Translations under genes and position numbers: made by a program
Virus record (IMG/VR): IMGVR_UViG_3300009496_000020
Location: 1 to 41,230 of that record
DNA length: 41,230 bases
DNA from: a virus
Direction: 5' to 3' (one strand)
Part shown: one piece after another, positions 345 through 39,948 of the stretch
Layout of the letters: the number at the start of each line of letters is the position of its first letter
Position numbering within the stretch: position 1 is the stretch's first letter
Notes under the pieces: model-generated
Databases searched by the model: none
What the model saw: only the letters and a program-made list of their open reading frames with translations
Told to the model about the DNA's origin: nothing

Positions 345-351
345 GTTATTA

Positions 352-375
352 TCTTTTGGTTACATATATATTATC
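352..375 (-). promoter_or_regulatory. Conserved upstream element, copy 2 (promoter- or leader-like)
   Basis: The minus strand reads GATAATATATATGTAAC followed by CAAAAGA, starting 7 nt before the ATG of the 66-residue gene. It differs from copy 1 (93-116) at only two positions although the flanks differ. Repeated placement just ahead of leftward starts suggests a shared phage promoter with a short 5' leader, or a translation-initiation leader. Confidence 0.55.
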
Positions 376-451
376 GAACACCCATCGTGTTAGGTTTGTA
401 AATGCTATACATCGGATTACAGATTAGACAGCTGAGTCCAGATGTGGGGAG

Positions 452-705
452 GCCAGAGACAGGGCAGGAACAGGGTCAGAGACAGGGACCAGACCACACA
501 GGACAGCGCACAGGGACCAGGATACAGGAACAGAACCAGGTACAGGTACAGGACCAGGCACAGGACCGTGTACAGACACAGGCACAGAGCAGGGGAAAAG
601 CCAGAACATTTACAGGGAACAGGACAGAGCACAGTTAGCAGACAGTCAGTACCAGAACAGGAACTGGATAACCCTGAACGCAAAACAGGAACAGGCACGG
701 GGGCT
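452..705. repeat. Imperfect hexanucleotide (CAGGNA / ACAGGN) array
   Basis: About 250 bp rich in ACAGG, with roughly 15 occurrences, often spaced by multiples of 6 bp (for example TACAGGTACAGGACCAGGCA near 541-560). The plus strand is strikingly poor in T here, unlike the A/T-rich sequence on both sides. Open frames exist on both strands only because a 6-bp unit avoids stops; they give Gln-x, Arg-Tyr or Pro-Val dipeptide runs in different frames. No frame has clear coding character. Confidence 0.75.
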
Positions 706-851
706 GGTCAAAAGAAACAGCTTTCCGCATCGGGCATTACCGTTGTATATAAGTGTGTAACACAATACCTCTATATATCTAACAATTATATTCCGAAAGA
801 CCTATTTTGTACCCCGGGAGCGTTTTTATATCTAAGTAGATATGGTTAGTG

Positions 852-910
852 GACTAAAATTGGTTCGTTAACTGGTAAAATGGGGCTTAACGGACTAAAA
901 TTGGTTCATT
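852..910. repeat. Paired direct repeat GGACTAAA(A)TTGGTTCRTT
   Basis: Copy 1 at 852-870 and copy 2 at 893-910 differ by one A in the A-run and one G/A near the end. A partial third match, GGTTCGTT, lies at 937-944. The 41-bp spacing is roughly four helical turns, as expected for protein-binding sites on one face of DNA. Candidate operator or origin iterons upstream of the rightward block. Confidence 0.55.
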
Positions 911-921
911 TTTAAAAAAAA

Positions 922-934
922 ATTCCTTCGGAAT
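922..934 (-). terminator. Weak hairpin with adjacent T-run on the minus strand
   Basis: ATTCC-TTC-GGAAT forms a 5-bp stem with a 3-nt loop, flanked on the plus-strand 5' side by a run of A. Read on the minus strand this is a stem followed by a T-run, the layout of an intrinsic terminator. It could stop leftward read-through into the control region. The stem is short, so this is tentative. Confidence 0.25.
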
Positions 935-1002
935 AGGTTCGTTCTTAAAACTGTGACGATAGGGTATTATAGTATATAGTAGCAAGCTATTGTCGCTTAT
1001 TA

Positions 1003-1024
1003 ATTACCGCGGTAACCGCGTAAT
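1003..1024. promoter_or_regulatory. GC-rich stem-loop upstream of the rightward block
   Basis: ATTACCGCGG, loop TAA, then CCGCGTAAT form a 9-bp stem with a single bulged C. The left part is also a perfect 12-bp palindrome, TTACCGCGGTAA (1004-1015). It lies 35 bp before the first rightward start. It could be an operator or a 5'-leader structure; the sequence does not tell which. Confidence 0.4.
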
Positions 1025-1058
1025 CATACACGTATGCCTTTAACTAAAAACACATAAC

Positions 1059-1301
1059 ATGCCTCAGAAGCTATCTCCTCAAGCACGGCGCGATAAAGCT
1101 GCTCGTGATAAGGCTTATGCAATGACGCCTGCTCGTAGAGAAAAGAAGGCGCACGCACAAAGAGAGGCTAGAGCAAACCCTGGTGCTGCAAAAGGTAAGG
1201 ATTATGACCATAAAGACCAGCGGTGGGAGTCTCCTGCACAAAACAGGGGTAACGATGGCGAGGGCACTAAAAAAGAAAGTGGTAAAAACTACAAAATATA
1301 A
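1059..1301 (+). CDS. Small basic hypothetical phage protein
   Basis: An 80-residue, very basic, Arg/Lys/Ala-rich N-terminal half (about residues 7-47) is followed by a GKDYDHKD...RGNDGEGTKKES tail. Proteins with this DYDHK...NRGN pattern occur next to structural genes in other marine phages, from memory and without an assigned function. There are no membrane segments or signal peptide. It is the first gene of the rightward block, 8 bp ahead of the first adsorption gene, after an A-rich leader without Shine-Dalgarno sequence. A nucleic-acid-binding or virion-associated role would fit the charge but is inference. Confidence 0.65.
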   Translation: MPQKLSPQARRDKAARDKAYAMTPARREKKAHAQREARANPGAAKGKDYDHKDQRWESPAQNRGNDGEGTKKESGKNYKI

Positions 1302-4046: not shown

Positions 4047-7000
4047 ATGAAGTTTTTAAATGATGTAGGCCTAACCGCTGGGATAGAGGATAAAGACGGC
4101 GATTTAGGAACTTCTGGCCAGGTGCTTTCTTCAACGGGTACCAAGGTCAATTGGATAAGCTTAGGGTCATTAGCGGCCCTAAGCAGCGTCAACAACGGGA
4201 ATTGGTCAGGCACGGATTTATCTGTTGCTAACGGGGGAACAGGGGCATCAAGTGCGTCTGCTGCACGTACCAATTTAGGATTAGGTAGTGCTGCAACATC
4301 AGCTTCTACAGACTTTTTATCAGCTACTGGTTCAGACACAATGACTGGTACACTTACCATAAACACCGCTGCTGTTCCTTTTAAATTAATTGAGAATGGT
4401 CATACTGGTACTGGTAAATACTGGAGAATACCGCTTGACGTAGGTAATATTAGATTTGATGTTGATACAACAAACACCAATGGTGACGGAACTTTTGCTT
4501 CTTACACGGATGTTCTTTTACTAAAACCAAACGGTGATGTTCAGTTGTCAAATTATGGAGCTGGTATTTTAAAGACAGATGCGAGCGGTAATATTAGTCT
4601 TGATACAAGCACATATCTAACATCTATAAATAACGGCAACTGGTCAGGTACAGACTTGTCTGTCGCTAATGGTGGAACAGGTGCAAGTACAGCAAGTGGC
4701 GCCCGTACCAACCTCGGTGTTGTTAATGATACGGGTACGCCGGCTATTTTATCAAATGGCACTACGCCTAGTTTAAATTCTGGTATATCTGCAGCAGAGG
4801 TAAGATCTCTTATAGGGGCGGGCACAGGAAGTGGTACTTCCAATTTAGTTATTGGTACAACATCGACGACCGCAATGGCCGGTAATACTACAACTATCTC
4901 TTCCGCTCAAGCTAGCGCTATAACCGCTAACACTGCTAAAGTAACCGATACAGGTACTCCCGCGATTCTGTCTAATGGTACAACACCAAGTTTAAATAGC
5001 GGTATATCTGCGGCTGAAGTAAGAACCTTAATTGGAGCAGGAACATCGAGCACAACGGGAACTACCACCGCGTCTAACACTCAGACGTTCACTAACAAAA
5101 GTGGTTCTAACCTGCAGTGGACAAATGATGCTGGATATATAACCTCTGCGGGAGACATTACAGCGGTAACTGCTGGTACAAATTTAAACGGAGGCGGCAC
5201 AACAGGTGATGTTACTTTAAATCTCGATGCAGCTATTGCTATAACATCAGCTGCTATAGGTTCAACGGTTACACTTTCAGAATCTGCTGACCGTGCCGAT
5301 TTACTATACATAAACAGCTCTACAAGCAGTTGGGGTGGTCTTCAGATTGGTAACACGTCTAATGAGTTTATTTTCTCATTAATGGGTAATGGTAATGAGG
5401 GTGGTATTTATGATGATGTTCATGCTGATTGGATAATACGCTGGGACGAAAACGCTGCTGTTAAACTTAATTATAACGCTTCCGAAAAGCTTGCTACTAC
5501 AAACACAGGTGTTAGCGTTACTGGATCTTTAACAACTAGCTCTGACATAACGGTTAGCGGTGGCGATATTACATTAGGGGGCACGGGTAGAATCCAGGGT
5601 GTGGATACAGTATCTGCTAATACAGACGCTGCGAATAAGCTGTATGTGGATACTGCTGTCGCTGGAGTACCTGTGGGAGATATTACAGGTGTAACCGCTG
5701 GGTCGGGAATTAGCGGCGGCGGAACCTCTGGAACCGTTACAGTAAACGTAGACTATGCAGGAACAGATAATATTATACTTGAAGCTCAGGATTTATCCGG
5801 TACACAAATAGAAGATGGTTTTAAAATACTATTTTCTGACACTTCAAACGATGTAAGCTTTGGTAATGTAAATGACTTACCGTTTGGTTCGTCAAACTTG
5901 GTAATCGGTACAACAAGCACCACGGCTATGGCCGGTAATACGACTACTATATCTAGTAGCCAAGCATCAGCTATTACAGCGAACAGCGCAAAGACTGGAA
6001 TCACGAGTGCTCAAGCTTCCGCAATTACAGCAAACACCGCAAAAGTTGGGATCACCTCAACACAAGCGTCAAACATCACTACGAATAATGCAAAGGTAAG
6101 CGATACAGGCACACCAGCGATATTAAGTAACGGGTCAACTCCTTCATTAAATAGTGGTATATCTGCCGCGGAGGTTAGGAGTCTTATAGGGGCTGGAACT
6201 GGTAGCTCAAATTTAGCTATAGGTACAACGTCTTCAACGGCAATGGCCGGTAATACTACAACTATATCTAGTGGTCAAGCATCGGCTATAACCGCTAACA
6301 CAGCCAAAACTGGTATCACATCCTCACAAGCATCCGCTATTACAGCGAACACAGCCAAAACCGGTATTACATCCTCACAAGCTAGTGCTATTACTGCAAA
6401 CTCTGCCAAAACTGGTATAACATCTTCACAGGCATCCGCCATTACTGCTAATACCGCTAAAGTATCCGATACAGGCACGCCGGCTATTTTGTCTAACGGT
6501 TCTGAACCAGAGTTAAACACAAATATGAGCGGTTCGCAAATTAGAGATCTTATAGGTGCGGGTACTTCAAGTCTAGCTATAGGCACAACGGCGTCAACCG
6601 CAAAGGCAGGTAACATAACAACAATTACCTCAGGACAGGCGACTGCTATTACCGCTAATACCGCTAAGACTGGTATAACATCTTCGCAGGCTTCCGCGAT
6701 AACGGCTAACACCGCTAAGGTTAGTATGGTGATAGGCTCTTCGGAAGAAGAAGCAATGGCGGGTGATACTAGGACTATCACTTCTGCAGAGATTACTGCT
6801 ATTTCTACAAACAGTGCTAAGACCGGTATAACGTCTGGTCAAGCAAGTGCTATTACGGCCAATACGGCTAAAACAGGCATTACATCAAGCCAAGCATCTG
6901 CTATTACTGCCAACACTGCTAAAGTAACTGATTCAGGCACGCCTGCAATACTTTCTAATGGCACAACACCATCGCTAAACTCAGGTATTAGTGCGGCAGA

Positions 7001-8177
7001 GGTACGTAGCCTTATTGGAGCGGGGACTTCTAGCCTCGCAATAGGTACTACGGCGTCTACTGCTAAGGCGGGTAATACGACTACGATTACAAGTGCCCAA
7101 GCAACAGCTATTACAGCTAATACCGCTAAGGTAAGTGATACGGGTACACCTGCAATTCTATCTAATGGATCAACCCCATCTTTAAACTCGGGAATATCCG
7201 CAGCTGAAGTAAGAAGTTTAATTGGAGCGGGCACCGGTAGCGGTACTACAACTGCAAGCAATACACAAACTTTTACAAATAAGTCTGGTAGTAACAACCA
7301 ATGGACTAATGACGCGGGTTATATAACAGGCGTAGACTGGACTGAGATTGCGGGTGACCCAGCAAACATAAATATAAGTGGTTTTAACAATGACTCCGGT
7401 TTTACCGCTAACACAGGTACAATAACAGGTGTAAGTACAGGTACGGGGTTAGACGGCACGGCGACTAGTGGCTCCGTTACTATTACCCTCGATCTTTCAG
7501 AGCTAGCTGACATGACTCAAACCATGGTTGGTACTGACGAGTTTATCGTACTAGACAACGGGGCTGAGCGCAGAAAAGCCGCCAACGAAATAGGGTTAAG
7601 CATATTTAGCAACGATAGTGGTTTTATAACAGGCTTGACTTGGGAGGAAATTACAGGCGACCAGTCAGTTGTAAACATTAGCGGGTTTAATAACGACGCG
7701 GGCTATACTAGCAATACTGGTGATATAACAGCTGTTACCGCTGGTACCGGAATGTCCGGTGGCGGCACTTCTGGTGCAGTCACTTTAAATTGTACTATAG
7801 ACAGTCCAGGAGAAGTCGGCTTAGGTAATTTGTCTTCTAGTGGTAATGCGCTAGCTGGTTCTTTTACGGCAACAGGTGATATTACAGCGTTCTCCGATGC
7901 AAGGGTTAAAGAAAATATAGAAACTATACCTAACGCGTTGGATAAAGTTTCAGCGCTTCGCGGGGTAACTTATAATAAGTTAGGCGAGAGTAAATCCTCT
8001 ATGGGGGTTGTAGCGCAAGAGCTATTAGAGGTAATACCGGAAGTTGTGCATGAAAATAACGACGGTATGTACTCGGTAGCTTATGGTAACATTGTAGCAG
8101 TTCTTATTGAAGCTATGAAAGAACAACAAGAGCAGATTAACGATTTAAAAATTAAGTTAGATGGCTTTACCAAGTAG
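4047..8177 (+). CDS. Large repetitive tail fibre with S74 intramolecular chaperone
   Basis: A 1376-residue protein. The shaft is built of fibre units: LSVANGGTGASSASAARTNLG, many TGITSSQASAITANTAK-type 17-residue repeats, and several copies of DTGTPAILSNGTTPSLNSGI followed by SAAEVRSLIGAG. The last ~94 residues (1283-1376) are a peptidase S74 / endosialidase-type chaperone: FSDARVKENIE, then MGVVAQELLEVIPEVV, then a terminal coiled coil. In this family the chaperone trimerises the fibre and cuts itself off before the Ser of SDxRxK; here S1283 and K1288 are in place. The 3' end overlaps the lectin gene by 17 bp, coupling the two. Very probably a main host-range fibre; the receptor is unknown. 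Confidence 0.9.
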   Translation: MKFLNDVGLTAGIEDKDGDLGTSGQVLSSTGTKVNWISLGSLAALSSVNNGNWSGTDLSVANGGTGASSASAARTNLGLGSAATSASTDFLSATGSDTMTGTLTINTAAVPFKLIENGHTGTGKYWRIPLDVGNIRFDVDTTNTNGDGTFASYTDVLLLKPNGDVQLSNYGAGILKTDASGNISLDTSTYLTSINNGNWSGTDLSVANGGTGASTASGARTNLGVVNDTGTPAILSNGTTPSLNSGISAAEVRSLIGAGTGSGTSNLVIGTTSTTAMAGNTTTISSAQASAITANTAKVTDTGTPAILSNGTTPSLNSGISAAEVRTLIGAGTSSTTGTTTASNTQTFTNKSGSNLQWTNDAGYITSAGDITAVTAGTNLNGGGTTGDVTLNLDAAIAITSAAIGSTVTLSESADRADLLYINSSTSSWGGLQIGNTSNEFIFSLMGNGNEGGIYDDVHADWIIRWDENAAVKLNYNASEKLATTNTGVSVTGSLTTSSDITVSGGDITLGGTGRIQGVDTVSANTDAANKLYVDTAVAGVPVGDITGVTAGSGISGGGTSGTVTVNVDYAGTDNIILEAQDLSGTQIEDGFKILFSDTSNDVSFGNVNDLPFGSSNLVIGTTSTTAMAGNTTTISSSQASAITANSAKTGITSAQASAITANTAKVGITSTQASNITTNNAKVSDTGTPAILSNGSTPSLNSGISAAEVRSLIGAGTGSSNLAIGTTSSTAMAGNTTTISSGQASAITANTAKTGITSSQASAITANTAKTGITSSQASAITANSAKTGITSSQASAITANTAKVSDTGTPAILSNGSEPELNTNMSGSQIRDLIGAGTSSLAIGTTASTAKAGNITTITSGQATAITANTAKTGITSSQASAITANTAKVSMVIGSSEEEAMAGDTRTITSAEITAISTNSAKTGITSGQASAITANTAKTGITSSQASAITANTAKVTDSGTPAILSNGTTPSLNSGISAAEVRSLIGAGTSSLAIGTTASTAKAGNTTTITSAQATAITANTAKVSDTGTPAILSNGSTPSLNSGISAAEVRSLIGAGTGSGTTTASNTQTFTNKSGSNNQWTNDAGYITGVDWTEIAGDPANINISGFNNDSGFTANTGTITGVSTGTGLDGTATSGSVTITLDLSELADMTQTMVGTDEFIVLDNGAERRKAANEIGLSIFSNDSGFITGLTWEEITGDQSVVNISGFNNDAGYTSNTGDITAVTAGTGMSGGGTSGAVTLNCTIDSPGEVGLGNLSSSGNALAGSFTATGDITAFSDARVKENIETIPNALDKVSALRGVTYNKLGESKSSMGVVAQELLEVIPEVVHENNDGMYSVAYGNIVAVLIEAMKEQQEQINDLKIKLDGFTK

Positions 8178-18093: not shown

Positions 18094-20520
18094 ATGGCTG
18101 AGTCAGTTGTAAATAATTTTTTCCCTAGCCAGGTTGCTAGCGACCAGGAGAAGATGTCATTTGAATATGGCCGCCAGGTAGGTAGAGCTATTCAATCTGA
18201 ATGGTTTGGTGGCAATTCAGGAAACGTAAGATTTCAAAGTAATCAAAATAGTTTTCATGGGTTAAGATTATATGCCAGAGGCGAACAGCCAATACAAAAA
18301 TACAAAGATGAATTATCTGTTAACGGTGATTTGTCTTATCTTAATTTAGATTGGAAGCCTGTTCCTATATTATCTAAGTTTGTTGATATTGTGGTTAACG
18401 GTATTGCGGACAGATCTTTTGATTTAAAAGCATATTCACAAGATCCATACGGGGTTGAAAAGCGTACTGCATATATGGACTCTATTATAAGAGACATGCA
18501 AACCCAAGAGATTAATGACTATGCGGCTGAAGCGTTTGGTATTAACTTATACGAAAACGATAAAGAGAATTTACCGGGTTCAAAAGAAGAGCTAGAGTTG
18601 CATATGCAGCTAAGCTATAAACAAGGTATTGAAATAGCAGAGGAAATAGCAATTAATACTTTATTTGATGGCAACAACTATGATTTAGCTAAAAGAAGAG
18701 TATATTACGATTTAACAACCATCGGTATTGGTGCGGTTAAAAACACATTTTCAGAATCGGAAGGGGTTGTTATTGATTATGTAGATCCAGCTAATCTTGT
18801 TTATTCTTACACTGAATCTCCTTATTTTGAAGACATATATTATGTTGGAGAAGTTAAGAACATACCGATCAACGAATTAAAAAAGCAATACCCTCAACTC
18901 GACCAAGCTCAGCTTGACAAAATAAAAGCAGCGGGGTCTTATAATAACACAACTTCTTGGAATCAATTTAATGACGGCGCCGATCGGGGTTATGATTCTA
19001 ATACGGTGCAGGTTTTGTATTTTAATTACAAGACCTATATGAACGAGGTATACAAAGTAAAAGAAACGGCTACAGGCGGTTTAAAAGCTATACAAAGAGA
19101 CGATCAATTTAACCCACCTGCAGATTCCGAGGGATTTGCTAAAGCGTCACGCTCACTAGAGGTATTATATGAGGGCGCTATGATATTAGGGCCTAGTATG
19201 CTATTAGAATGGGGAATGGCTAAAAATATGGTACGTCCTAAAAGTGATTACAATAAAGTAAAAATGAATTACAGTATTGTAGCACCAAGAATGTACAGAG
19301 GCCGTATTGAATCTATTGTAAGCCGCTGTACGGGATTTGCTGATATGATACAGCTTACTCATTTAAAGATGCAGCAGGTGCTGTCTAAAATGATGCCTGA
19401 TGGTGTGTACATGGACGCTGATGGTTTAGCTGAGATAGATTTAGGGAACGGCACAAACTACAATCCGCAAGAAGCGCTTAATATGTTCTTCCAAACAGGT
19501 TCAGTTATTGGACGCTCATTTACTCAGGAAGGCGATATGAATCCAGGTAAAGTTCCAATCCAGCCGTTACAAACCGGAGCAGGTGGCCAAAAGCTACAAA
19601 CGCTAATTCAAACATATAACTATTATTTGCAAATGATTCGTGACGTCACGGGTCTTAATGAAGCTCGCGATGGTTCAACACCTGATTCAAGAGCACTGGT
19701 TGGCGTGCAAAAATTAGCTGCTGCGAATTCTAATACCGCTACAAGACATATATTAGACTCAGGATTGTTTTTAACAGCGGATACAGCAGAGTCTTTGTCG
19801 CTTAGAATATCAGATATACTTGAGTATAGCCCGTCTAAAGAAGCTTTTATTCAAAAGATAGGTGGGTTTAATGTAGGCATACTGGAAGAACTTAATGACC
19901 TATACCTTCACGACTTTGGTATTGTACTTGAATTATCACCAGACGACGAAGAAAAAGGTATGCTAGAAAATAACATACAAACCGCGCTTTCCGCTGGGCT
20001 TATAGATTTATCAGACGCAATTGATATACGAGAAGTTAAAAACCTTAAGTTAGCTAATCAGTTATTAAAACTGCGTAGAAAGCAAAAGCAATTACGCGAT
20101 CAAGAAATACAACAGCAAAATATACAAGCGCAAGCGCAAGCGAACGCACAAGCACAACAAGTAGCAGCGCAAGCGGAAATACAGAAAGAACAAGCGCTGT
20201 TCCAAACAAAAGCGCAGCTTGAACAAATGAAAGCTCAAATTGACCAGCAAAAAATGCAGTCTGAAGTTCAATTAAAGAAAGAACTTATGGCCTTGGAGTT
20301 CCAATACAACATGCAGCTTAAGGGCATTGAGGTTGATGGGCAAAAGCAAAAAGAGTCTAGTAAAGAAGACCGCAAAGACGAAAGAACTAAAATGCAAGCG
20401 ACTCAACAAAGCGAGTTAATTGATCAAAGAAAAAATGACTCGCCACCTAAAAACTTCGAATCCTCTGGAAACGATATACTTGGCGGTGGGTTTGGCTTAG
20501 GTACCTTTGAACCTAGGTAA
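18094..20520 (+). CDS. Portal protein
   Basis: An 808-residue protein following TerL by 4 bp. N-terminal and central parts (FHGLRLYARGEQPIQKYKDE, DWKPVPILSKFVDIVVNGI, RVYYDLTTIGIGAVKN, DPANLVYSYTESPYFEDIYY, SIVAPRMYRGRIESIVS, RDVTGLNEARDGS) are typical of large portals. The last ~150 residues are a Gln/Ala-rich coiled coil (about 655-760) and a glycine-rich tail ending GFGLGTFEPR, likely the barrel or internal crown. A dodecameric ring at one capsid vertex binds TerL and the tail adaptors. The identification rests on position and fold pattern and is strong. Confidence 0.85.
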   Translation: MAESVVNNFFPSQVASDQEKMSFEYGRQVGRAIQSEWFGGNSGNVRFQSNQNSFHGLRLYARGEQPIQKYKDELSVNGDLSYLNLDWKPVPILSKFVDIVVNGIADRSFDLKAYSQDPYGVEKRTAYMDSIIRDMQTQEINDYAAEAFGINLYENDKENLPGSKEELELHMQLSYKQGIEIAEEIAINTLFDGNNYDLAKRRVYYDLTTIGIGAVKNTFSESEGVVIDYVDPANLVYSYTESPYFEDIYYVGEVKNIPINELKKQYPQLDQAQLDKIKAAGSYNNTTSWNQFNDGADRGYDSNTVQVLYFNYKTYMNEVYKVKETATGGLKAIQRDDQFNPPADSEGFAKASRSLEVLYEGAMILGPSMLLEWGMAKNMVRPKSDYNKVKMNYSIVAPRMYRGRIESIVSRCTGFADMIQLTHLKMQQVLSKMMPDGVYMDADGLAEIDLGNGTNYNPQEALNMFFQTGSVIGRSFTQEGDMNPGKVPIQPLQTGAGGQKLQTLIQTYNYYLQMIRDVTGLNEARDGSTPDSRALVGVQKLAAANSNTATRHILDSGLFLTADTAESLSLRISDILEYSPSKEAFIQKIGGFNVGILEELNDLYLHDFGIVLELSPDDEEKGMLENNIQTALSAGLIDLSDAIDIREVKNLKLANQLLKLRRKQKQLRDQEIQQQNIQAQAQANAQAQQVAAQAEIQKEQALFQTKAQLEQMKAQIDQQKMQSEVQLKKELMALEFQYNMQLKGIEVDGQKQKESSKEDRKDERTKMQATQQSELIDQRKNDSPPKNFESSGNDILGGGFGLGTFEPR

Positions 20521-20552
20521 TTATAGTAATAATAATTTTATAATATCTTATC

Positions 20553-21722
20553 ATGAGTGAAGAAACTAACCCGGTAGTAGGCGTCGATGAAGACGGCACT
20601 ATCAAAGTAAACATGCAAGCTAATGCCGTTCAAGAGCAAAGCACAGATGAGGTTCCTGTACGCGACGAACCCGCAGTTAGCGAAGAAGTACCAGAACAAA
20701 ACGTCGAAGCAGCAGTTGAAGAATCTGCCAGAGAAGAAGAGCGCGTTCAAGATGAACAGCCTGTTCAAGAAGAACCAGTAGAAGAAACTTCTGTATTACA
20801 AGAAATTACAGACGAAGAAGTAGAAGAAGTAGCGGAACAACTTGAAGAAGATGTAGCCACAGCAATTGAAGAATCCGCAAAAGCCGGCGCAAACCTGCCC
20901 GAAAACATTCAAAAAGTTGTTGACTTTATGGATGAAACGGGTGGTACTTTGGAAGATTATGTGCGGCTTAATACTGATTACTCACAGTTAAATGAAGATC
21001 AGTTATTGCGCGAGTACTACGAAACAAAATATAAATCGTACGATAGAGAAGACATTGACTTTTTATTAGAAGACAAATTTTCTTACGATGAAGAGCTTGA
21101 CGAGGAGCGCGATGTACGTTTAAAGAAAATAGAACGCAAAAGAGCGCTATCAGAAGCTAAAGAGCATTTAGATAATTTAAAGTCTAAATATTACGATGAA
21201 ATTAAAGCCGGATCTAGGTTAAACCCTGACCAGCAAAAAGCGGTAGAATTTTTCAATCGCTATACAAAAGAAAGTGAGGAGGCTGCTAAAATTGCAGAAC
21301 AACAAACCAGTAGGTTTAACCGCGAAAGCGCGAAAGTATTTAACGAAAATTTTCAAGGGTTTGATTACAACGTTGGAGACAAAAAGTACCGCTTTAAGGT
21401 TAACGATACTGGCAAGGTTAAGGATACCCAAGGTGACATTAACAACTTTATCAAGAAGTTCTTGAACGAAAAAGGTGAAATGTCGGACGCTAAAGGCTAC
21501 CATAAATCGCTGTTCACCGCAATGAACGCTGATCAAGTTGCACAACACTTTTACGAGCAAGGCAAAGCCGATGCAGTAAAGGATAGTATGGCCCGCACAA
21601 AGAACGTTGATATGAATCCGAGAGGGGTTCACGAAGAAGTAACAGCGGCTAATGGGTGGAAAATACGCGCAGTTGACAGTGGAACTAACAGCTCTAAACT
21701 TAAGGTTAAGTTTAAAAAATAA
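20553..21722 (+). CDS. Capsid scaffolding protein
   Basis: A 389-residue protein between portal and capsid genes. Residues ~1-110 are very acidic (many Glu/Val/Gln, for example EEVPEQNVEAAVEESAREEE). The middle is helical and charged (EHLDNLKSKYYDEI; FFNRYTKESEEAAKIAEQQT), and the C-terminus is basic (NSSKLKVKFKK), the usual capsid-binding end of scaffolds. Such proteins assemble the prohead and leave before DNA enters. There is no obvious protease in the window except the small HExxH protein and the motif in the 2593-residue protein. Composition and position support the call; direct similarity is not visible. Confidence 0.8.
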   Translation: MSEETNPVVGVDEDGTIKVNMQANAVQEQSTDEVPVRDEPAVSEEVPEQNVEAAVEESAREEERVQDEQPVQEEPVEETSVLQEITDEEVEEVAEQLEEDVATAIEESAKAGANLPENIQKVVDFMDETGGTLEDYVRLNTDYSQLNEDQLLREYYETKYKSYDREDIDFLLEDKFSYDEELDEERDVRLKKIERKRALSEAKEHLDNLKSKYYDEIKAGSRLNPDQQKAVEFFNRYTKESEEAAKIAEQQTSRFNRESAKVFNENFQGFDYNVGDKKYRFKVNDTGKVKDTQGDINNFIKKFLNEKGEMSDAKGYHKSLFTAMNADQVAQHFYEQGKADAVKDSMARTKNVDMNPRGVHEEVTAANGWKIRAVDSGTNSSKLKVKFKK

Positions 21723-32166: not shown

Positions 32167-35100
32167 ATGTACATTAAAGACGGTATAGAGCTTACTCCTG
32201 AAGACGTTGCTTATAACGCTTCTATTGCTGGGGTTTCACCTGAGCAATGGGTAGAGGAAAACGAATTTAATACTGTTGAAGAAACAGACCCTCCAAAAGA
32301 GGGAAAGCTTATCGGCCCACCAGTGGAGACTCAACTGCCTGGGCCAGTAACGGAAGCGACGTTCGCTGGGGTTTCCAGTTCGGTCGATACTTCTTTGGAG
32401 TCACCCGAGTTTCCAACCATGCTGGACGAAGTAGAGGTAGTCGCGGATAAAATAACTACAGAGGCTACCCCATTTTTAGAAAAGCTTGCTAGCATTAATA
32501 AAGATACCGAAAAAGAATCTATACTTGCTAGTTATTTTTATTTAAAGAAAGATTTAAACGGAGATTATGTTTTTGATCTGCCAAAAGAAATATTAGTAGA
32601 ATACGGAGAGAAAGTAGCCGGCCGAGCAAACGTAGCTTCTGTTGCTTCAGGTGGAGCGGCGAGAAATCCAGATACATACGTTCCAACAATGGAAGCTGTC
32701 AGACAAGCCTTAGGGCCAGAAAAATTTAATCAGTGGTCCGCTAATATAGGAAATGCTATTTATGCAACCCCTGAAACTTTAAATGAAGTTTTTGACATAA
32801 GTGAAGTAGACGACAAAACCATAAGTACTGTTTTAGACGGTAAAAAAACGACCGCCATGGAGGCTCTAATGAGGGGCTTAAGTGACAAAGAAATATCAGA
32901 GGTTTTAGACGAAGCTGTATCTTTAGATCCGGAATATCAGCAAGCCGTTAATGAAGCGCTAAGCGACGAGCAGGGAAACCGCATACAATCCATGGAGGGA
33001 ATTAAAGGAGACCGTGAGATATATACTGATTTACTAAAAAATGAATTTAAAGATTTAAAACAGCATAGTGAAGCATTTAAAGGAGCCGAGCAATTTTTCC
33101 AACAATCAATAGATAAATTTGAAGCTGATAAAAAGGATATAGAAACCCGCGCAGACGAATTATTTAAAAACTTAGAAGCTAAGAAAAAAGCAGTTGAAGG
33201 GTTTACGGTTGTCCCCGGCATAAACCAAAATAGCATAGACGCTATAAATAGCGCTCAAGATGCATACAAAGAGGCGGTTGATGAGTACAACGCATTTATA
33301 TCAGGTGAAGAAGCTGTAGCATTACAAGCCTCCGCAGACGCACTTATTGCTAGCCAAACAGCATTGGAATATCAAGCTGAATGGCTTTCTGAGCGCTACA
33401 CAAATCTTGTAAAAACCAACTACTTGCAGAATGCGGCTCTTAAAAACTACAGCAAACTAGATTTAGCTGGTCAAGCACTTGAAGAGGGGATATTAGGCAC
33501 CGCTGCTGGATTTATGGGGATGCTGGCGCAAGGTGCCACTTATTTATCTTTCAGTAAAGGTGCTCCTATGCCTGAGGCTATTCAAGATTATTTGCTAAAC
33601 TTCAAAGGTAGAACAGTACAATACAATATAGACCTTAACGAAAAAAGGGTTAAAGAATTCCCAGCAAAAGCAAAATTTGCGCAAGTCAGTAAGGGTGACA
33701 TGTCGCTATGGGATTACGCAGGCGAAAGTTTAATGAATGGGGCACCTAGTATACTAGCCGTAATGGGACCACAGGCTGTTGCTTATGGCACTATTAAATA
33801 CGGAAGTAAAAAAGTTATAGCTAATCAAATTCGCAAAATGGCAGCGAGAGCTACTATGACGTCTTTCTATATTCAAGAAACCGGTGGCGACTACATGCAA
33901 AGCTCGATTGCTCAAAAAAATGCAGGAACAAGATTAGTTGAATTAAACGAGGAATTAAAAAATGCTGTAAGCGGGGTTGATAAAATTAAGCTGCAAGAGC
34001 AGATTGATATTGAAACAAATAATCTTAATCGATCTGAATTCACGAAAGTCGCAAGCGCTAACACTAAAGGTTTTATAGCAAAGTATGCTGAAAAATTTGG
34101 TACTTTAAGCACAATACGTAATTTTCAAAGATACTCTGCCGCAATTGGTAGAAGACAGCTAAGCAAATCTATGGTTCCTTTTGTCCGTAATAACGCTCGT
34201 TTTATAGCTGGAGGTATTGGTACCGCGAAAGGTGTGGCTATAGGTGTACCTATAGAATTTTTAGAAGAGGGCTTTACTTTGATGGGGCATAACTTAGTAG
34301 ATAGCCAAATAAACGGTATTTCCAAAAGTATATTAGAGGGATTAGATATCGACTTTGCTGTTGATGTCATAATGCCAACCCTGGCTATTATGGGGCCTAG
34401 TGCAATGGGTAACATTGGTAGTGTTATTCAAAGCGAGCTTTTAACTCGGGAACAGGCAGCTAAGGCTACGGAAATTAGAAACGAAATACACGAAATTCAA
34501 GATGCTATTGATGGCTTAGATGGCCGCACGAAATCAGCAAGAGATTTGGGTAAAAGAAAAACCGAGCTTTTTAGAGATCTTAATTTATTGGATGCTGAAG
34601 TACTTATAAAAGCCGGACAACTTGATAAATCTGATTTTAAAAGTTTAACAGATTTAAACCGCGAAATAAGCTTATTAGAAAAAGACGTTGCTGAAATAGG
34701 TAGCGCAGGTAAAATTACACAGAAAAACAGAGCTGAATTTGAAAGATTAAAAGCGGAAATCGAACAGCTTACTTCTAATAAAGAAGATATACTGCGTAAG
34801 CCTGAAGAAGCTATACGAGAAGAAGCTGAAAAAGCAGGTTTAGAAGCAGAAGGAATACTACAATTTAGTCAATATTCTGCAAACGTAGTAGTCGCTAAGG
34901 GATTTTACGGAGATAACTTTGTTGAAATTAAAGAAGAAGCCGACATTGAAAACCTTCCTGAAGATATAAAAGAAGCGGCCCGTGAGGCTTACAACGCTAC
35001 AATAAAAAACGAAAAAGGCGAAGAAGTCCCTGAATTGCTGCTTGGTGCTTTTACAAAAGGTAAAGCAGTTGTTTTTAAAGAGCGCGTTTTAGCGGCTATT

Positions 35101-38100
35101 CAAGTAGGTGGAGACTTAGGGCTATTCGCGGCACCTGTGCCTATACACGAAGTAGGACACGGCGAAGTTTCTAAATCAAAACCATTAGTGGATAAAGGCA
35201 TTGTTGGATTAGAAAACAACATGGTTCAGAGCGTGTTAAATGAAATGGATCGGTTAGCTGAAACTGGTGGCATATCCGCATCTACATTAGAAACATTTAA
35301 AGCACGTTTTGATCTGTACCTAAATCGTAGAGAAGACGGCAAAGTAGACGCGGACGAGCTGATACAACTTATAAGCGACTTAGACGCAAACGGGTTATTG
35401 CCGCCTAGCTCTTTTGATGGTATTGCGGAAATAAAAGGCGTTATTAGGCAAATTATGAGCGTTCTTATGCCGGAGGGGCGTACGTTTTTTAAATTAGACA
35501 GCTATAAAGATGTTAGATCTTTTTTATCAAGCTGGCAAAGAAAAGCATTTGGAGGAGCAAGGGCTAATACTTTACCGGAAAACGAGGAAGACGGCGAAAC
35601 AAAAGAAAGTATAGGGCAGAAAACACTTCTTGGGGACATTAACGCGCTTGTACCTGAGTCTGTGGAAACTCAAGATCAATTCTTTGATCGCAAAGTCTTT
35701 AATCCTATATATAATGAAGGCAAGCTTCACCCGTCTATAGCTAATTACATCCGCTCTCGCTCGGTGAGTAAAGAAGAAGCGCAAAAAATTATAGAAAGTG
35801 TAAGTGAGCGTTTAATCAACTTTAACCCAGCCGCTAAGCGTAAATCAGGTGACGCTAAAATAACATTAGGCGAGTTTATATTTTCCAATGTCAACTTCGG
35901 TAAGCTAGACGCTAGGAAAGCTTTGTTTGAAGAAGGTCAAGAGCGCGCACAGGTTGAAAGCACAGACAGCGAAACGGCTAAGCAAGTTGTAGCCAAAGAA
36001 GAAAACGCGCCTGCTGCTATAGAAAAGCCTAAATATAAAACACTTACTAAAAGACGGGTGCTTAGCGAAGAAGCTAAATCAACAGCGGAAGCCAAAGTGT
36101 TATCTAACGTACGGGTGCTAAAATCAAGAATAGATGCTAAGGTAGGTAAAAACGTTACAGTCACGCCTTTGATTGCTGAAATAAAGAAAACTTTGGGCAA
36201 GCAGTTGGACATCGACTTTAAGAAAGAGATGGGCGGTAAAAAAGACGGCCAGCTTAGAAAGTATTTACTGCGCAACAAAGCAGCTATACTTGAGAATATG
36301 ACCACTACATGGCTAATGACCGCAATGCCCAACGCTGTGCAAAAGCAGGTTGACGGGGTTTGGACAAGCAACTGGCAGGGTAAAAAAATTGACAGAGAGG
36401 CTGTGTCCACAGATAACGCTGGGCGCACATCAGGTGCAGAGCTAGTAAGAAGACTGCCTAAAGCGGCAGCAAGATTATCTGATGCTGATTACTTATCTAA
36501 TGTTTTAGACGCAACAGGAGCGCCTATACGCGGTCGTAAAGAATCGTTAGCTAAAGCAATGGCTGAGCAGTATGCTATAGAAACTATACAAGAAGGTGTT
36601 GCGAATCCTAATTCTGAAATTGGAAAAGCATTCCTTGATAATCAAGCGAGAAAAGGCGTTGAAATTACAGAAACAACAGCTGTGGAGCTTAATCGCCAAG
36701 CAGAACAAGGGAATGTTAAGTTTTCACTGGGCTTAGGTGCTGTAATAGAGTATTTAGAAAACCCTAAATTTAATATTAATTTAGGTAATAATCGTGAAAA
36801 AGGAATTAATAAATTGCTTATACTTCACGGTAAAGATACTATATTCAAGCTAGACAGCAAAGAAGATATAGACAACTGGGCAAAAAGCACAACTAAACAC
36901 GTGCTACCACTTCTGCCAAAAGATATATTCTTTTCTAAAGATAAAAAAGGCAACTACAAAGAAAGCGGTAGCAGCGCATTTAGAAGATCGAATAGATTCG
37001 TAGGTGAAAAATCCTTGGACGATTATTTTGTAAGCAAAATAAATGAAATGCGAGCGTTGAAAGAAAGTGCTTTTGCACCGGCTATAAAAGGCTTGGATAA
37101 AAAGTTTTCGCCGTCTTACGATACAAACATAGGTAAGGACGACGCAGTTATGCAGGCTAATATGGACAAAGGCCAGGTTGCACAATTTAATAATTACTGG
37201 GGCACGATACATCGTGTTATGTGGCAAAACATAAATAAAGCAATTAAAGCAAACCCTGATAACAACGATGTTTTAAAGGCTATTGGTAATTACATGAGTA
37301 ACGTTAGCAACGACAAGTCTCACCCACATAAAATGGGCGCGGAATTTGTAGGGTACTCAATGGACGCTGTTGGCAAAACTAGTGATAAAGGAACATTCCG
37401 TAAATACGAGTGGGAGCACGCAATGCCCGCAACTAACGCATACCTTTACCTTTTAGATGCGTCTATAAACGGATTTGACTTTGACGCAGCTTATAATGCT
37501 GTAATGGCTAACTATAAGCTGATAGCTTTAGACACAGCACAAGATTTAAAAATTAAGGCTGCGGGATTAAGTAACGGTATGCCAATAGGCTGGAAGCTTA
37601 CTGAAAACAATTGGACAGAGCGTTATTCTGAATCAGGTGTTGATCTTAATACTATAATGACCACTAGCGGTATAACTCTACAACAGGCTATAAACAGTCG
37701 CGGAGCTACTCAATTTAATAGTGAAATTAATACAGAAGCTTTAGAAAAAGCAAAGCAGGATATTAAAGATACTGAAAAGCAAAAGTACAAGCCAAGTTTA
37801 GGATTAAGCAAAGAGTTTAATAACATACTTGAGCGCAAAACCGGTGTTGAATCATTTAAAACATTTTCAGCTGTTCAAGCACAGAAACGCGGTGAAAAGA
37901 AAGGTAAATTTAAATTCTTTGTTGCGCCGAGCGTTGATGATTTTAGAGGTTTAGTTAACTATGCATTTGCTGGTAAAGGTAAACAGGGTGAAGCTGATAT
38001 GAAATGGCTCGAAGATAACCTAATGACGCCTTATGCTAAAGGTATTGCCGCTATTAACGGTATACGTCAGCAAATAAAACGCGACTTTAAAACCGCAGTT

Positions 38101-39948
38101 AAAGCATTCCCTAAGCAGTACCAGTTGCTAAATAAAGAGATTGGCAAGACGGGTTTTACTTATGATCAAGCTGTTAGGGTGTACCTGTGGGGTAAAGCAG
38201 GTATCAAAGCACCAGGTTTGTCTCGGAAAGACACAAAAATACTACAAGACGCTATTCGTGAAAATCCGGACTTAATGGACTTTGCAGATGCAATGCTTGT
38301 TGTTGCCCGCCGCGATACGTGGATGGAGCCGAGTGAATATTGGTCGGCAAGTACATTGCTGTCAGATCTTAACAGTATGACCGAGAAAATCGGCCGTAAA
38401 AAATACTTAGAAGAGTTTATACAAAACGCTGATGCAATATTTACTACAGAAAATCTAAATAAAATTGAGGCGTTGTACGGTAAAGCGCATCGTGATGCAA
38501 TTGAAGACTCTCTGTACTCAATGAAGAACGGGACAAACCGTAGCGCGGGAGGCAATAAGCAGGTTAATGCATGGTTGAACTGGATTAATGGTTCTACAGG
38601 TGCGATTATGTTCTTCAACAGACGCTCTGCGCTATTGCAGATGCTTTCTACTGTTAACTTTATAAACTACTCTGATAACAACCCTCTTAAGGCAGCAGCA
38701 GCGTTTGCTAATCAAAAGCAATACTGGACTGACTGGGCAATGATATTTAACTCAGACAAACTTAAGGAGCGCCGGGGCGGATTAAAGCAGGACGTAAGTT
38801 CTAACGAAATAGCCAGTATAGCTAACGCAAACAAAAACAGCCCTCAAGCTATTTTAGCTAAGTTATTGCGATTAGGGTTTACACCTACTCAAATTGCGGA
38901 TAGTATGGCTATCGCATCCGGGGGCGCTACTTTTTACCGCAACCGTGTTAATACTTACATTAAGGAAGGTATGTCTAAAAAGGAAGCAGAGGAGCAAGCT
39001 TTCTTAGACTTTTCTAAAATATCAGATGAAACACAGCAGTCTTCAGATCCAGCACTAGTTTCTCAGGTACAAAGAAGCAACCTAGGTCGTCTTGTATTTG
39101 CTTTCCAAAATACACCAATGCAAATGACGCGTTTAATGAAGAAAGATGCGTTGGATATTATTAATGGCCGCGGTGACTGGAGAGTTAAAGTAGCAAGAAT
39201 TACTTATTACGGAGCGATTCAAAACTTTATATTCGCATCCTTACAAAGCGCGTTATTCGCTATGCTACCAGGTTTTGATGACGATGACGAAGATCTTACT
39301 GCCGCTGAATTAGATAAGAAAAACGCAAAAGAAGAGGCTAAGATAGCTAGAGTGTTAAACAGTATGCTTGATACCTTGCTTCGCGGTTCCGGTGTATACG
39401 GCGCTGTGTTCTCTACCGTTAAAAACGTTATTAGAGAATACAATAAGCAAGAGAAAAAAGGTTTTATGTCAAACCACGCTTATACCGTATTGTCTTTATT
39501 TGATATATCGCCGCCTATTGGTTCTAAAGCTCGTAAAGTGCATAGTGCTATTCAAACAAGAAAGTTTGAGAAAGACGAAATTGCAGCACGTGGCTGGGGC
39601 GTAGCAGCAGACGGTAGATTAGATTTAGGTCCAAATTGGAGTATATTAGGTAAAGTTTTATCTGCCGCGGCTAGTGTACCGCTTGATCGTGTAGTAGACG
39701 AGCTTACTTCTATTAGCGAAGCATTCGATGCGCGTAACAAAGCGTGGCAGCGTATAGCATTAGCCCTAGGCTGGAAAACGTGGGATGTAGGTGCTATAGA
39801 GGAAAACGCTGAAGCTATTAAAGCAGCCGCTAAGAAAGAGCGCAAGGAAGCGGGGGTTGAAAAAGCGAAAAAAACCAGGACTAAAAACAAAAACAAAAGC
39901 AGAAATACAAGAAATACTTCTGCACCAAGAAACGTTAGAAAACGATAA
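32167..39948 (+). CDS. Giant internal virion protein with zincin motif (large polyvalent protein)
   Basis: A 2593-residue protein, about twice T7 gp16. It contains HEVGH (H994, E995, H998) followed by GEVSKS, a zinc-peptidase motif. Long coiled-coil segments occur around 270-420 (EQFFQQSIDKFEADKKDIET) and 760-910 (ILRKPEEAIREEAEKAGLEA). Hydrophobic stretches include GTAAGFMGMLAQGATYLSF and FIFASLQSALFAMLPGF. The C-terminal ~500 residues (FFNRRSALLQMLSTVNFINY, LGFTPTQIADSMAIASGGAT, SDPALVSQVQRSNLGRLVF) match a conserved C-terminal block of phage large polyvalent proteins (LPD38-like), ending in a Lys/Arg-rich tail. Presumably injected with DNA and crossing or cutting envelope components; the exact targets are unknown. 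Confidence 0.82.
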   Translation: MYIKDGIELTPEDVAYNASIAGVSPEQWVEENEFNTVEETDPPKEGKLIGPPVETQLPGPVTEATFAGVSSSVDTSLESPEFPTMLDEVEVVADKITTEATPFLEKLASINKDTEKESILASYFYLKKDLNGDYVFDLPKEILVEYGEKVAGRANVASVASGGAARNPDTYVPTMEAVRQALGPEKFNQWSANIGNAIYATPETLNEVFDISEVDDKTISTVLDGKKTTAMEALMRGLSDKEISEVLDEAVSLDPEYQQAVNEALSDEQGNRIQSMEGIKGDREIYTDLLKNEFKDLKQHSEAFKGAEQFFQQSIDKFEADKKDIETRADELFKNLEAKKKAVEGFTVVPGINQNSIDAINSAQDAYKEAVDEYNAFISGEEAVALQASADALIASQTALEYQAEWLSERYTNLVKTNYLQNAALKNYSKLDLAGQALEEGILGTAAGFMGMLAQGATYLSFSKGAPMPEAIQDYLLNFKGRTVQYNIDLNEKRVKEFPAKAKFAQVSKGDMSLWDYAGESLMNGAPSILAVMGPQAVAYGTIKYGSKKVIANQIRKMAARATMTSFYIQETGGDYMQSSIAQKNAGTRLVELNEELKNAVSGVDKIKLQEQIDIETNNLNRSEFTKVASANTKGFIAKYAEKFGTLSTIRNFQRYSAAIGRRQLSKSMVPFVRNNARFIAGGIGTAKGVAIGVPIEFLEEGFTLMGHNLVDSQINGISKSILEGLDIDFAVDVIMPTLAIMGPSAMGNIGSVIQSELLTREQAAKATEIRNEIHEIQDAIDGLDGRTKSARDLGKRKTELFRDLNLLDAEVLIKAGQLDKSDFKSLTDLNREISLLEKDVAEIGSAGKITQKNRAEFERLKAEIEQLTSNKEDILRKPEEAIREEAEKAGLEAEGILQFSQYSANVVVAKGFYGDNFVEIKEEADIENLPEDIKEAAREAYNATIKNEKGEEVPELLLGAFTKGKAVVFKERVLAAIQVGGDLGLFAAPVPIHEVGHGEVSKSKPLVDKGIVGLENNMVQSVLNEMDRLAETGGISASTLETFKARFDLYLNRREDGKVDADELIQLISDLDANGLLPPSSFDGIAEIKGVIRQIMSVLMPEGRTFFKLDSYKDVRSFLSSWQRKAFGGARANTLPENEEDGETKESIGQKTLLGDINALVPESVETQDQFFDRKVFNPIYNEGKLHPSIANYIRSRSVSKEEAQKIIESVSERLINFNPAAKRKSGDAKITLGEFIFSNVNFGKLDARKALFEEGQERAQVESTDSETAKQVVAKEENAPAAIEKPKYKTLTKRRVLSEEAKSTAEAKVLSNVRVLKSRIDAKVGKNVTVTPLIAEIKKTLGKQLDIDFKKEMGGKKDGQLRKYLLRNKAAILENMTTTWLMTAMPNAVQKQVDGVWTSNWQGKKIDREAVSTDNAGRTSGAELVRRLPKAAARLSDADYLSNVLDATGAPIRGRKESLAKAMAEQYAIETIQEGVANPNSEIGKAFLDNQARKGVEITETTAVELNRQAEQGNVKFSLGLGAVIEYLENPKFNINLGNNREKGINKLLILHGKDTIFKLDSKEDIDNWAKSTTKHVLPLLPKDIFFSKDKKGNYKESGSSAFRRSNRFVGEKSLDDYFVSKINEMRALKESAFAPAIKGLDKKFSPSYDTNIGKDDAVMQANMDKGQVAQFNNYWGTIHRVMWQNINKAIKANPDNNDVLKAIGNYMSNVSNDKSHPHKMGAEFVGYSMDAVGKTSDKGTFRKYEWEHAMPATNAYLYLLDASINGFDFDAAYNAVMANYKLIALDTAQDLKIKAAGLSNGMPIGWKLTENNWTERYSESGVDLNTIMTTSGITLQQAINSRGATQFNSEINTEALEKAKQDIKDTEKQKYKPSLGLSKEFNNILERKTGVESFKTFSAVQAQKRGEKKGKFKFFVAPSVDDFRGLVNYAFAGKGKQGEADMKWLEDNLMTPYAKGIAAINGIRQQIKRDFKTAVKAFPKQYQLLNKEIGKTGFTYDQAVRVYLWGKAGIKAPGLSRKDTKILQDAIRENPDLMDFADAMLVVARRDTWMEPSEYWSASTLLSDLNSMTEKIGRKKYLEEFIQNADAIFTTENLNKIEALYGKAHRDAIEDSLYSMKNGTNRSAGGNKQVNAWLNWINGSTGAIMFFNRRSALLQMLSTVNFINYSDNNPLKAAAAFANQKQYWTDWAMIFNSDKLKERRGGLKQDVSSNEIASIANANKNSPQAILAKLLRLGFTPTQIADSMAIASGGATFYRNRVNTYIKEGMSKKEAEEQAFLDFSKISDETQQSSDPALVSQVQRSNLGRLVFAFQNTPMQMTRLMKKDALDIINGRGDWRVKVARITYYGAIQNFIFASLQSALFAMLPGFDDDDEDLTAAELDKKNAKEEAKIARVLNSMLDTLLRGSGVYGAVFSTVKNVIREYNKQEKKGFMSNHAYTVLSLFDISPPIGSKARKVHSAIQTRKFEKDEIAARGWGVAADGRLDLGPNWSILGKVLSAAASVPLDRVVDELTSISEAFDARNKAWQRIALALGWKTWDVGAIEENAEAIKAAAKKERKEAGVEKAKKTRTKNKNKSRNTRNTSAPRNVRKR

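Follow-up and report, generated by a model that had tools for sequence, protein, structure and literature searches.

A probable divergent early/late transcription control region with a candidate operator dyad in uncultured marine podophages related to Flavobacterium and Cellulophaga phages

In Crassvirales, two opposed gene blocks are separated by an inversion of the GC skew, and late transcription is thought to rely on the host RNA polymerase (PMC10136315). A similar division is seen in Flavobacterium phage elemo (Elemovirus, MT497017), in which about 1.1 kb of DNA, largely non-coding and with the sequence motifs termed C and D below (table 1), lies between leftward early and rightward late blocks, and Podoviridae sp. 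ctfjg026 (MW202828), an uncultured podovirus, has both motifs as well as a low-complexity array in the equivalent place. At the level of regulatory logic, Cro-type regulators are a further point of reference, i.e. a single DNA-binding protein serves few operators, one of which lies over its own gene and one at another regulon. For the phages considered here, we found no annotation of the switch region, and a literature search found no transcriptome for any close relative.

The locus belongs to IMG/VR record IMGVR_UViG_3300009496_000020, the 41,230 bp of which are the entire stretch of DNA analysed (‘the window’) and are devoid of end repeats. Its source is an uncultured marine podophage related to Flavobacterium and Cellulophaga phages, with a large terminase that is 65% identical to that of MW202828, 46% to that of elemo and 36–38% to those of Cellulophaga phages phi18:3 and phi38:1. 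Terminase and portal match PHROG 6681 and PHROG 6547, respectively, and a structural protein has a match to the crAss muzzle family of Pfam; taken together with the terminase identities, this makes a member of the Bacteroidota the most likely host. The phage shares with Crassvirales the muzzle-like protein and the two opposed blocks with GC-skew inversion, whereas its relatives have genomes of about 60–68 kb and a different terminase family, and a virion RNA polymerase was not identified here. The window also encodes a phage GroEL (10664–12229; PHROG 5725, E 5e-138), as annotated in elemo and MW202828 too, and, at the end of the structural block, a 2593-aa ORF (32167–39948) without a PHROG or meaningful Pfam match; a 51-bp tandem repeat of 3.4 copies (6276–6448) lies within the tail-fibre gene (4047–8177). 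For comparison, 80 loci were fetched with the first late protein, each encoding a relative of it and most sharing this type of upstream region, and ten near-complete relatives were then examined over their full length; in one of these, G001, the first late protein is 90% identical to that of the window.

Table 1. Features in and around the non-coding region of the window (positions are those of the window).
Feature	Position	Strand	Remarks
Second block A copy	101–141	−	74% identical to the copy at 347–400 (direct repeat D3)
First leftward ORF	144–344	−	66 aa; no family match
Block A	360–401	−	candidate promoter for leftward early genes; minus strand reads TTACAAA..ACGA..CGATAATATATATGTAA; precedes the ATG at 344
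Word B	403–410	+	TGCTATAC; adjoins block A
CAG(G) array	420–720	+	T-depleted, low complexity; putative lineage-specific spacer or filler
Motif C	596–619	+	AAAAGCCAGAACATTTACAGGGAA; conserved island within the array
Motif D	699–726	+	GGGGGCTGGTCAAAAGAAACAGCTTTCC; near-invariant in alignment A1; recognisable in elemo and MW202828
Block E	757–785	+	GTAACACAATACCTCTATATATCTAACAA; TATA-like; candidate rightward promoter; fixed distance from D
A-run and ATTCC-TTCG-GAAT hairpin	914–934	−	terminator-like if read leftward; kept in L002, L003 and L004
Dyad F1	953–996	+	putative operator before the late operon; GTGACGATAG-N24-CTATTGTCGC; 40-bp dyad proper at 955–994
Leader block	1018–1036	+	GCGTAATCATACACGTATG; conserved; its ATG is the late-gene start in other relatives
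First late gene	1059–1301	+	80 aa; PHROG 6437; function not assigned

Positions 345–1058 are non-coding and lie between the leftward ORF and the rightward late genes, i.e. precisely the arrangement of leftward genes on one side and a virion block on the other that had been described in an earlier note on this DNA. G002, the sole relative for which ORFs were called, likewise has a leftward early and a rightward late block that diverge at the control region, and in the other near-complete relatives the patterns of oriented motifs and of skew agree with this layout. Promoter-like elements are conserved in both directions (block A leftward; block E and dyad F rightward), and the divergent promoter-type blocks, the operator dyad and the split into early and late genes all recur in relatives, which supports the bidirectional transcription switch that the note had put forward as one of two possibilities. 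In our reading, the region is likely to be a divergent early/late transcription control region, in which F would be the operator of an autoregulated helix-turn-helix (HTH) protein and the array a spacer. A switch of the GC skew, which had been proposed as a check, is indeed present in four of five relatives: in G002, G005, G006 and G007 the cumulative minimum precedes the late start by 0.2–2 kb, and in G001, the sequence of which is not closed, it lies elsewhere. Since the coding strands are G-rich in both gene blocks, however, skew cannot tell replication from transcription; it switches where gene orientation does and therefore provides no independent evidence for an origin.

Block A has the minus-strand consensus TTACAaa...AAtACGA.....aatcGATAATATAaaTGtAa among the relatives, each of which carries 8–14 copies of its core, almost all on the minus strand. 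In the early block, the start codon mostly follows 22–25 nt downstream of this core, and block A may thus be a promoter. As to word B, TGCTATACAC is the top over-represented 10-mer in nine relatives (79 occurrences versus 1.6 expected) and runs leftward in the early block (60 versus 7) and rightward at the control region of the window. Within genes it mostly encodes the peptide AIH in one frame, and because many occurrences lie inside early genes in just this form, a role of word B as an extended −10 promoter is no more than a possibility. In the early blocks of G001–G009 (loci L083–L118), TGCTATACAC is 50-fold over-represented and oriented with the early genes.

The earlier note had drawn attention to a 250-bp T-depleted CAGGNA-like array, and this tract is indeed an extreme of the genome, whether judged by its T content, its density of CAG or its 6-bp periodicity. 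Over the 250 bp from position 446, T makes up 6.4%, the lowest 250-bp value outside positions 1–1000 being 13.6%; CAG and CAGG occur 38 and 20 times in 420–720 (versus 21 and 8 in dinucleotide shuffles), and 14 CAG-to-CAG distances of 6 compare with 1.4 in such shuffles. Yet the array has no exactly repeated unit, with distances of 5, 6, 7 and 12 being intermixed, and TRF finds imperfect 6-, 11- and 18-bp units only (72–84% match), so that it is a degenerate periodic tract rather than a set of exact iterons. Moreover, relatives retain neither its words nor its length or strand bias, and the term ‘hexamer iterons’ used in the note is not tenable. Among about 40 relatives, the tract is either missing or made of other words (CCAG, ACAC, ATCCTG), in some with a bias on the other strand, and the interval from A/B to C is filled with CAGG, CCAGACC, ACACAC or ATCCTG words or is empty. 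The base depleted on the late strand is A instead of T in L005 and in MW202828, the array of which is rich in G/T and CG and has its strand bias reversed; elemo has no low-complexity array and contains TGCTATAC just once. Low-complexity words also occupy the C–D interval, the length of which stays fixed, and a comparison of L002 with the 3' part of the array is gapless over about 135 bp, with substitutions only. This turnover fits a rapidly diverging low-complexity spacer that changes by slippage and substitution, but not a set of sites bound by a conserved initiator or a function at the RNA or single-strand level; the array itself would then be passive. Alternating purine–pyrimidine sequence with Z-DNA potential was dropped by eye as a shared array property, since the CAGG array does not alternate. 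The spaced direct repeats also mentioned in the note are present (846–869 and 887–910) but are not common to the closest relative.

It is against this background that a replication origin has to be weighed, in which the CAGG hexamers would be iterons bound by an initiator. The 6-bp periodicity, the AT-rich stretches that adjoin the array and the skew minimum near the region in four relatives are what such an origin might look like; the repeat units, however, are much shorter and looser than typical iterons and are not kept in relatives, several of which have no array, the skew tracks gene orientation in both blocks, and no initiator gene could be assigned to the array within the window, which is truncated at its left end. 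We therefore consider a hexamer-iteron origin unlikely, and of the ‘origin or bidirectional switch’ originally suggested it is the switch that the conserved elements support. An origin that uses the conserved C–D–E block in place of the array is possible.

Dyad F consists of two GACRNTAG half-sites that face each other about 32 bp (roughly three helical turns) apart, with an outer length of 40–41 bp and a 24-bp AT-rich core. Its pattern occurs once in the 41-kb window and in none of 100 shuffles, and a position-weight scan of eight near-complete relatives found three or four copies in six and two copies in the other two. The copy in front of the late operon, F1, varies in its distance from E, whereas its distance from the late start is constant among close relatives. 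In the relatives, F2 follows 1.2–3 kb upstream, between genes of the leftward block and without a rightward gene that it would obviously serve, and F3 6–11 kb upstream on the other strand, where it covers the start codon of a protein of about 206 aa (GGCTA-ATG-TC). The gene for this protein, F2 and F3 all lie beyond the left end of the 41-kb fragment, and their presence in this phage is therefore argued from relatives such as G001. In G002, G004, G005 and G006, F2 is part of a second non-coding stretch of 100–540 bp that precedes the late start by about 1.3–2.7 kb, and in L016 and L018 this stretch is followed by the hairpin-like GTAGGACGGAGTCTACTCTTCCG; it is a candidate for an origin or a second control site.

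Being an inverted repeat, F could in principle also act as an RNA hairpin, i.e. as a bidirectional terminator or attenuator, all the more as the arms of several copies are flanked by A-runs and T-runs (AAAAGTGTGAC...GTCACACTTTT). However, the half-site letters show no covariation (pairing 0.795 versus 0.803 in shuffles for F1, and 0.856 versus 0.856 for F3), with mismatches at positions 4–5 as common as in shuffles, and F therefore behaves as a protein site rather than a hairpin. Its centre, moreover, is the 24-bp AT-rich core and, at the HTH gene, the start codon sits inside an arm, and we regard a hairpin function of F as quite improbable. Of the stem-loops seen in the earlier note, both the TTCG hairpin at about 922–934 and the dyad thus exist, but only the former is left as a hairpin; it has a T-run on the minus strand and was not detected by a terminator scan.

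The linkage of F to the approximately 206-aa protein was found from both sides. In loci fetched with the protein, the dyad lies at most 90 nt upstream of the gene in 69 of 79 independent cases, with the ATG within the right half-site in about 60 of these 69; among the remaining ten, seven have a degenerate copy and three have none within 90 nt. Conversely, a search with nothing but the F pattern gave 28 contigs. The protein (E ≤ 6e-79) is encoded by every one of the 21 that reach 52 kb or more, and the five that miss it are fragments no longer than about 50 kb. MW202828 has neither F nor the protein; over 50 kb, the palindrome TGTCGTTAACGACA occurs in it 22 times, probably as a many-operator system, and a repressor gene is annotated. 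In elemo (L123), the F dyad is absent, and weak homology to the protein (profile E 3.6e-5, probability 71%, 82 residues) is seen in the product of the first large late gene (20173–21039), directly beside the control region.

The protein is predicted to be a helix-turn-helix DNA-binding protein by virtue of sub-threshold Pfam matches (HTH_11/HTH_23, E about 0.002) and an AlphaFold2 model (pLDDT 87) with a C-terminal helical pattern of the helix-turn-helix type; PHROG, NCBIfam, PDB sequence and PDB fold searches gave nothing significant. It would bind F and might act there as an activator or as a repressor. The resulting regulator–operator logic may resemble that of Cro-type autoregulated HTH regulators, as a comparison of how such systems work rather than a claim of membership, whereas the two differ in that there is no recognisable sequence relation, the protein has 206 aa and the half-sites of its putative operator are about 32 bp apart.

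The other conserved elements, C, D and E, are distinguished by their spacing. In 14 loci, the window among them, C precedes D by 104–107 bp, with otherwise dissimilar sequence in between, and the D–E stretch is almost gapless among sequences of about 60% identity. Block E reads TATATTTG at a fixed place in several relatives and TATATCTA in the window, a weak match to TAnnTTTG, the −7 box of Bacteroidota housekeeping promoters in the consensus form cited in PMC10309648; in a best-in-75-bp search for this box, block E scored the same as background. Block E may nonetheless be a promoter for rightward transcription. Further downstream, the ATG of GCGTAATCATACACGTATG opens a seven-codon mini-ORF (1034–1057; MPLTKNT) that ends one base before the late start codon and has similar counterparts in L003 and L004.

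A fixed spacing between diverging sequences, with a rightward word B at the start, might also be expected if C–D–E, with or without the array, were a structured non-coding RNA transcribed rightward. This very improbable alternative was dropped, since RNAalifold gives a consensus energy of −0.2 kcal/mol without a compensatory pair, an exhaustive stem search of C–D–E found no convincing covarying stem, and mean folding z-scores are about 0 on both strands across 44 loci. In addition, no Rfam family comes near its cut-off (a scan of positions 1–1500 gave two sub-threshold chance matches), and the strand bias of the array flips among relatives. With these tests of RNA structure being negative, as were those for coding, the conserved parts C–D–E are read as DNA sites.

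That 402–850 encodes a low-complexity protein, which the earlier note had named as an objection to its own reading, is hardly credible, since the frames 402–638 (+), 442–849 (+) and 417–698 (−) are open because a tract nearly without T cannot contain stops in any frame, whereas those at 402–638 and 442–849 are broken in L004, the alignment with which has many indels that are not multiples of three, no family matches and several relatives lack the stretch.

Overall, the region comprises conserved promoter-like blocks and a candidate operator, which are new, whereas the CAGG array would be fast-changing filler. Leftward early transcription would start at block A, and rightward late transcription would pass C–D–E and F1 into the virion operon. 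F would be an operator, probably bound by the phage's own HTH protein of about 206 aa, the gene of which, with F over its start codon, would be autoregulated. Since F1 in turn precedes the late genes, the same protein would set the timing of the transition from early to late expression, and the spacer from C to D appears to be held in length but not in sequence. Taken one step further, and with somewhat less confidence than the control region as such, these uncultured marine flavophages may well have a previously undescribed regulon, in which one HTH protein controls its own start as well as the whole virion operon via about three near-identical 40-bp dyads, beside a C–D spacer of fixed length (about ten helical turns), the sequence of which is replaced by low-complexity words peculiar to each lineage.

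A conspicuous periodic array between phage genes can thus turn out to be a non-conserved spacer, and relatives should be compared before such an array is named an iteron origin. For these phages, which are carried by several hundred metagenomic contigs, the analysis yields a concrete candidate regulator–operator pair and a promoter consensus, testable with one protein and short DNA.
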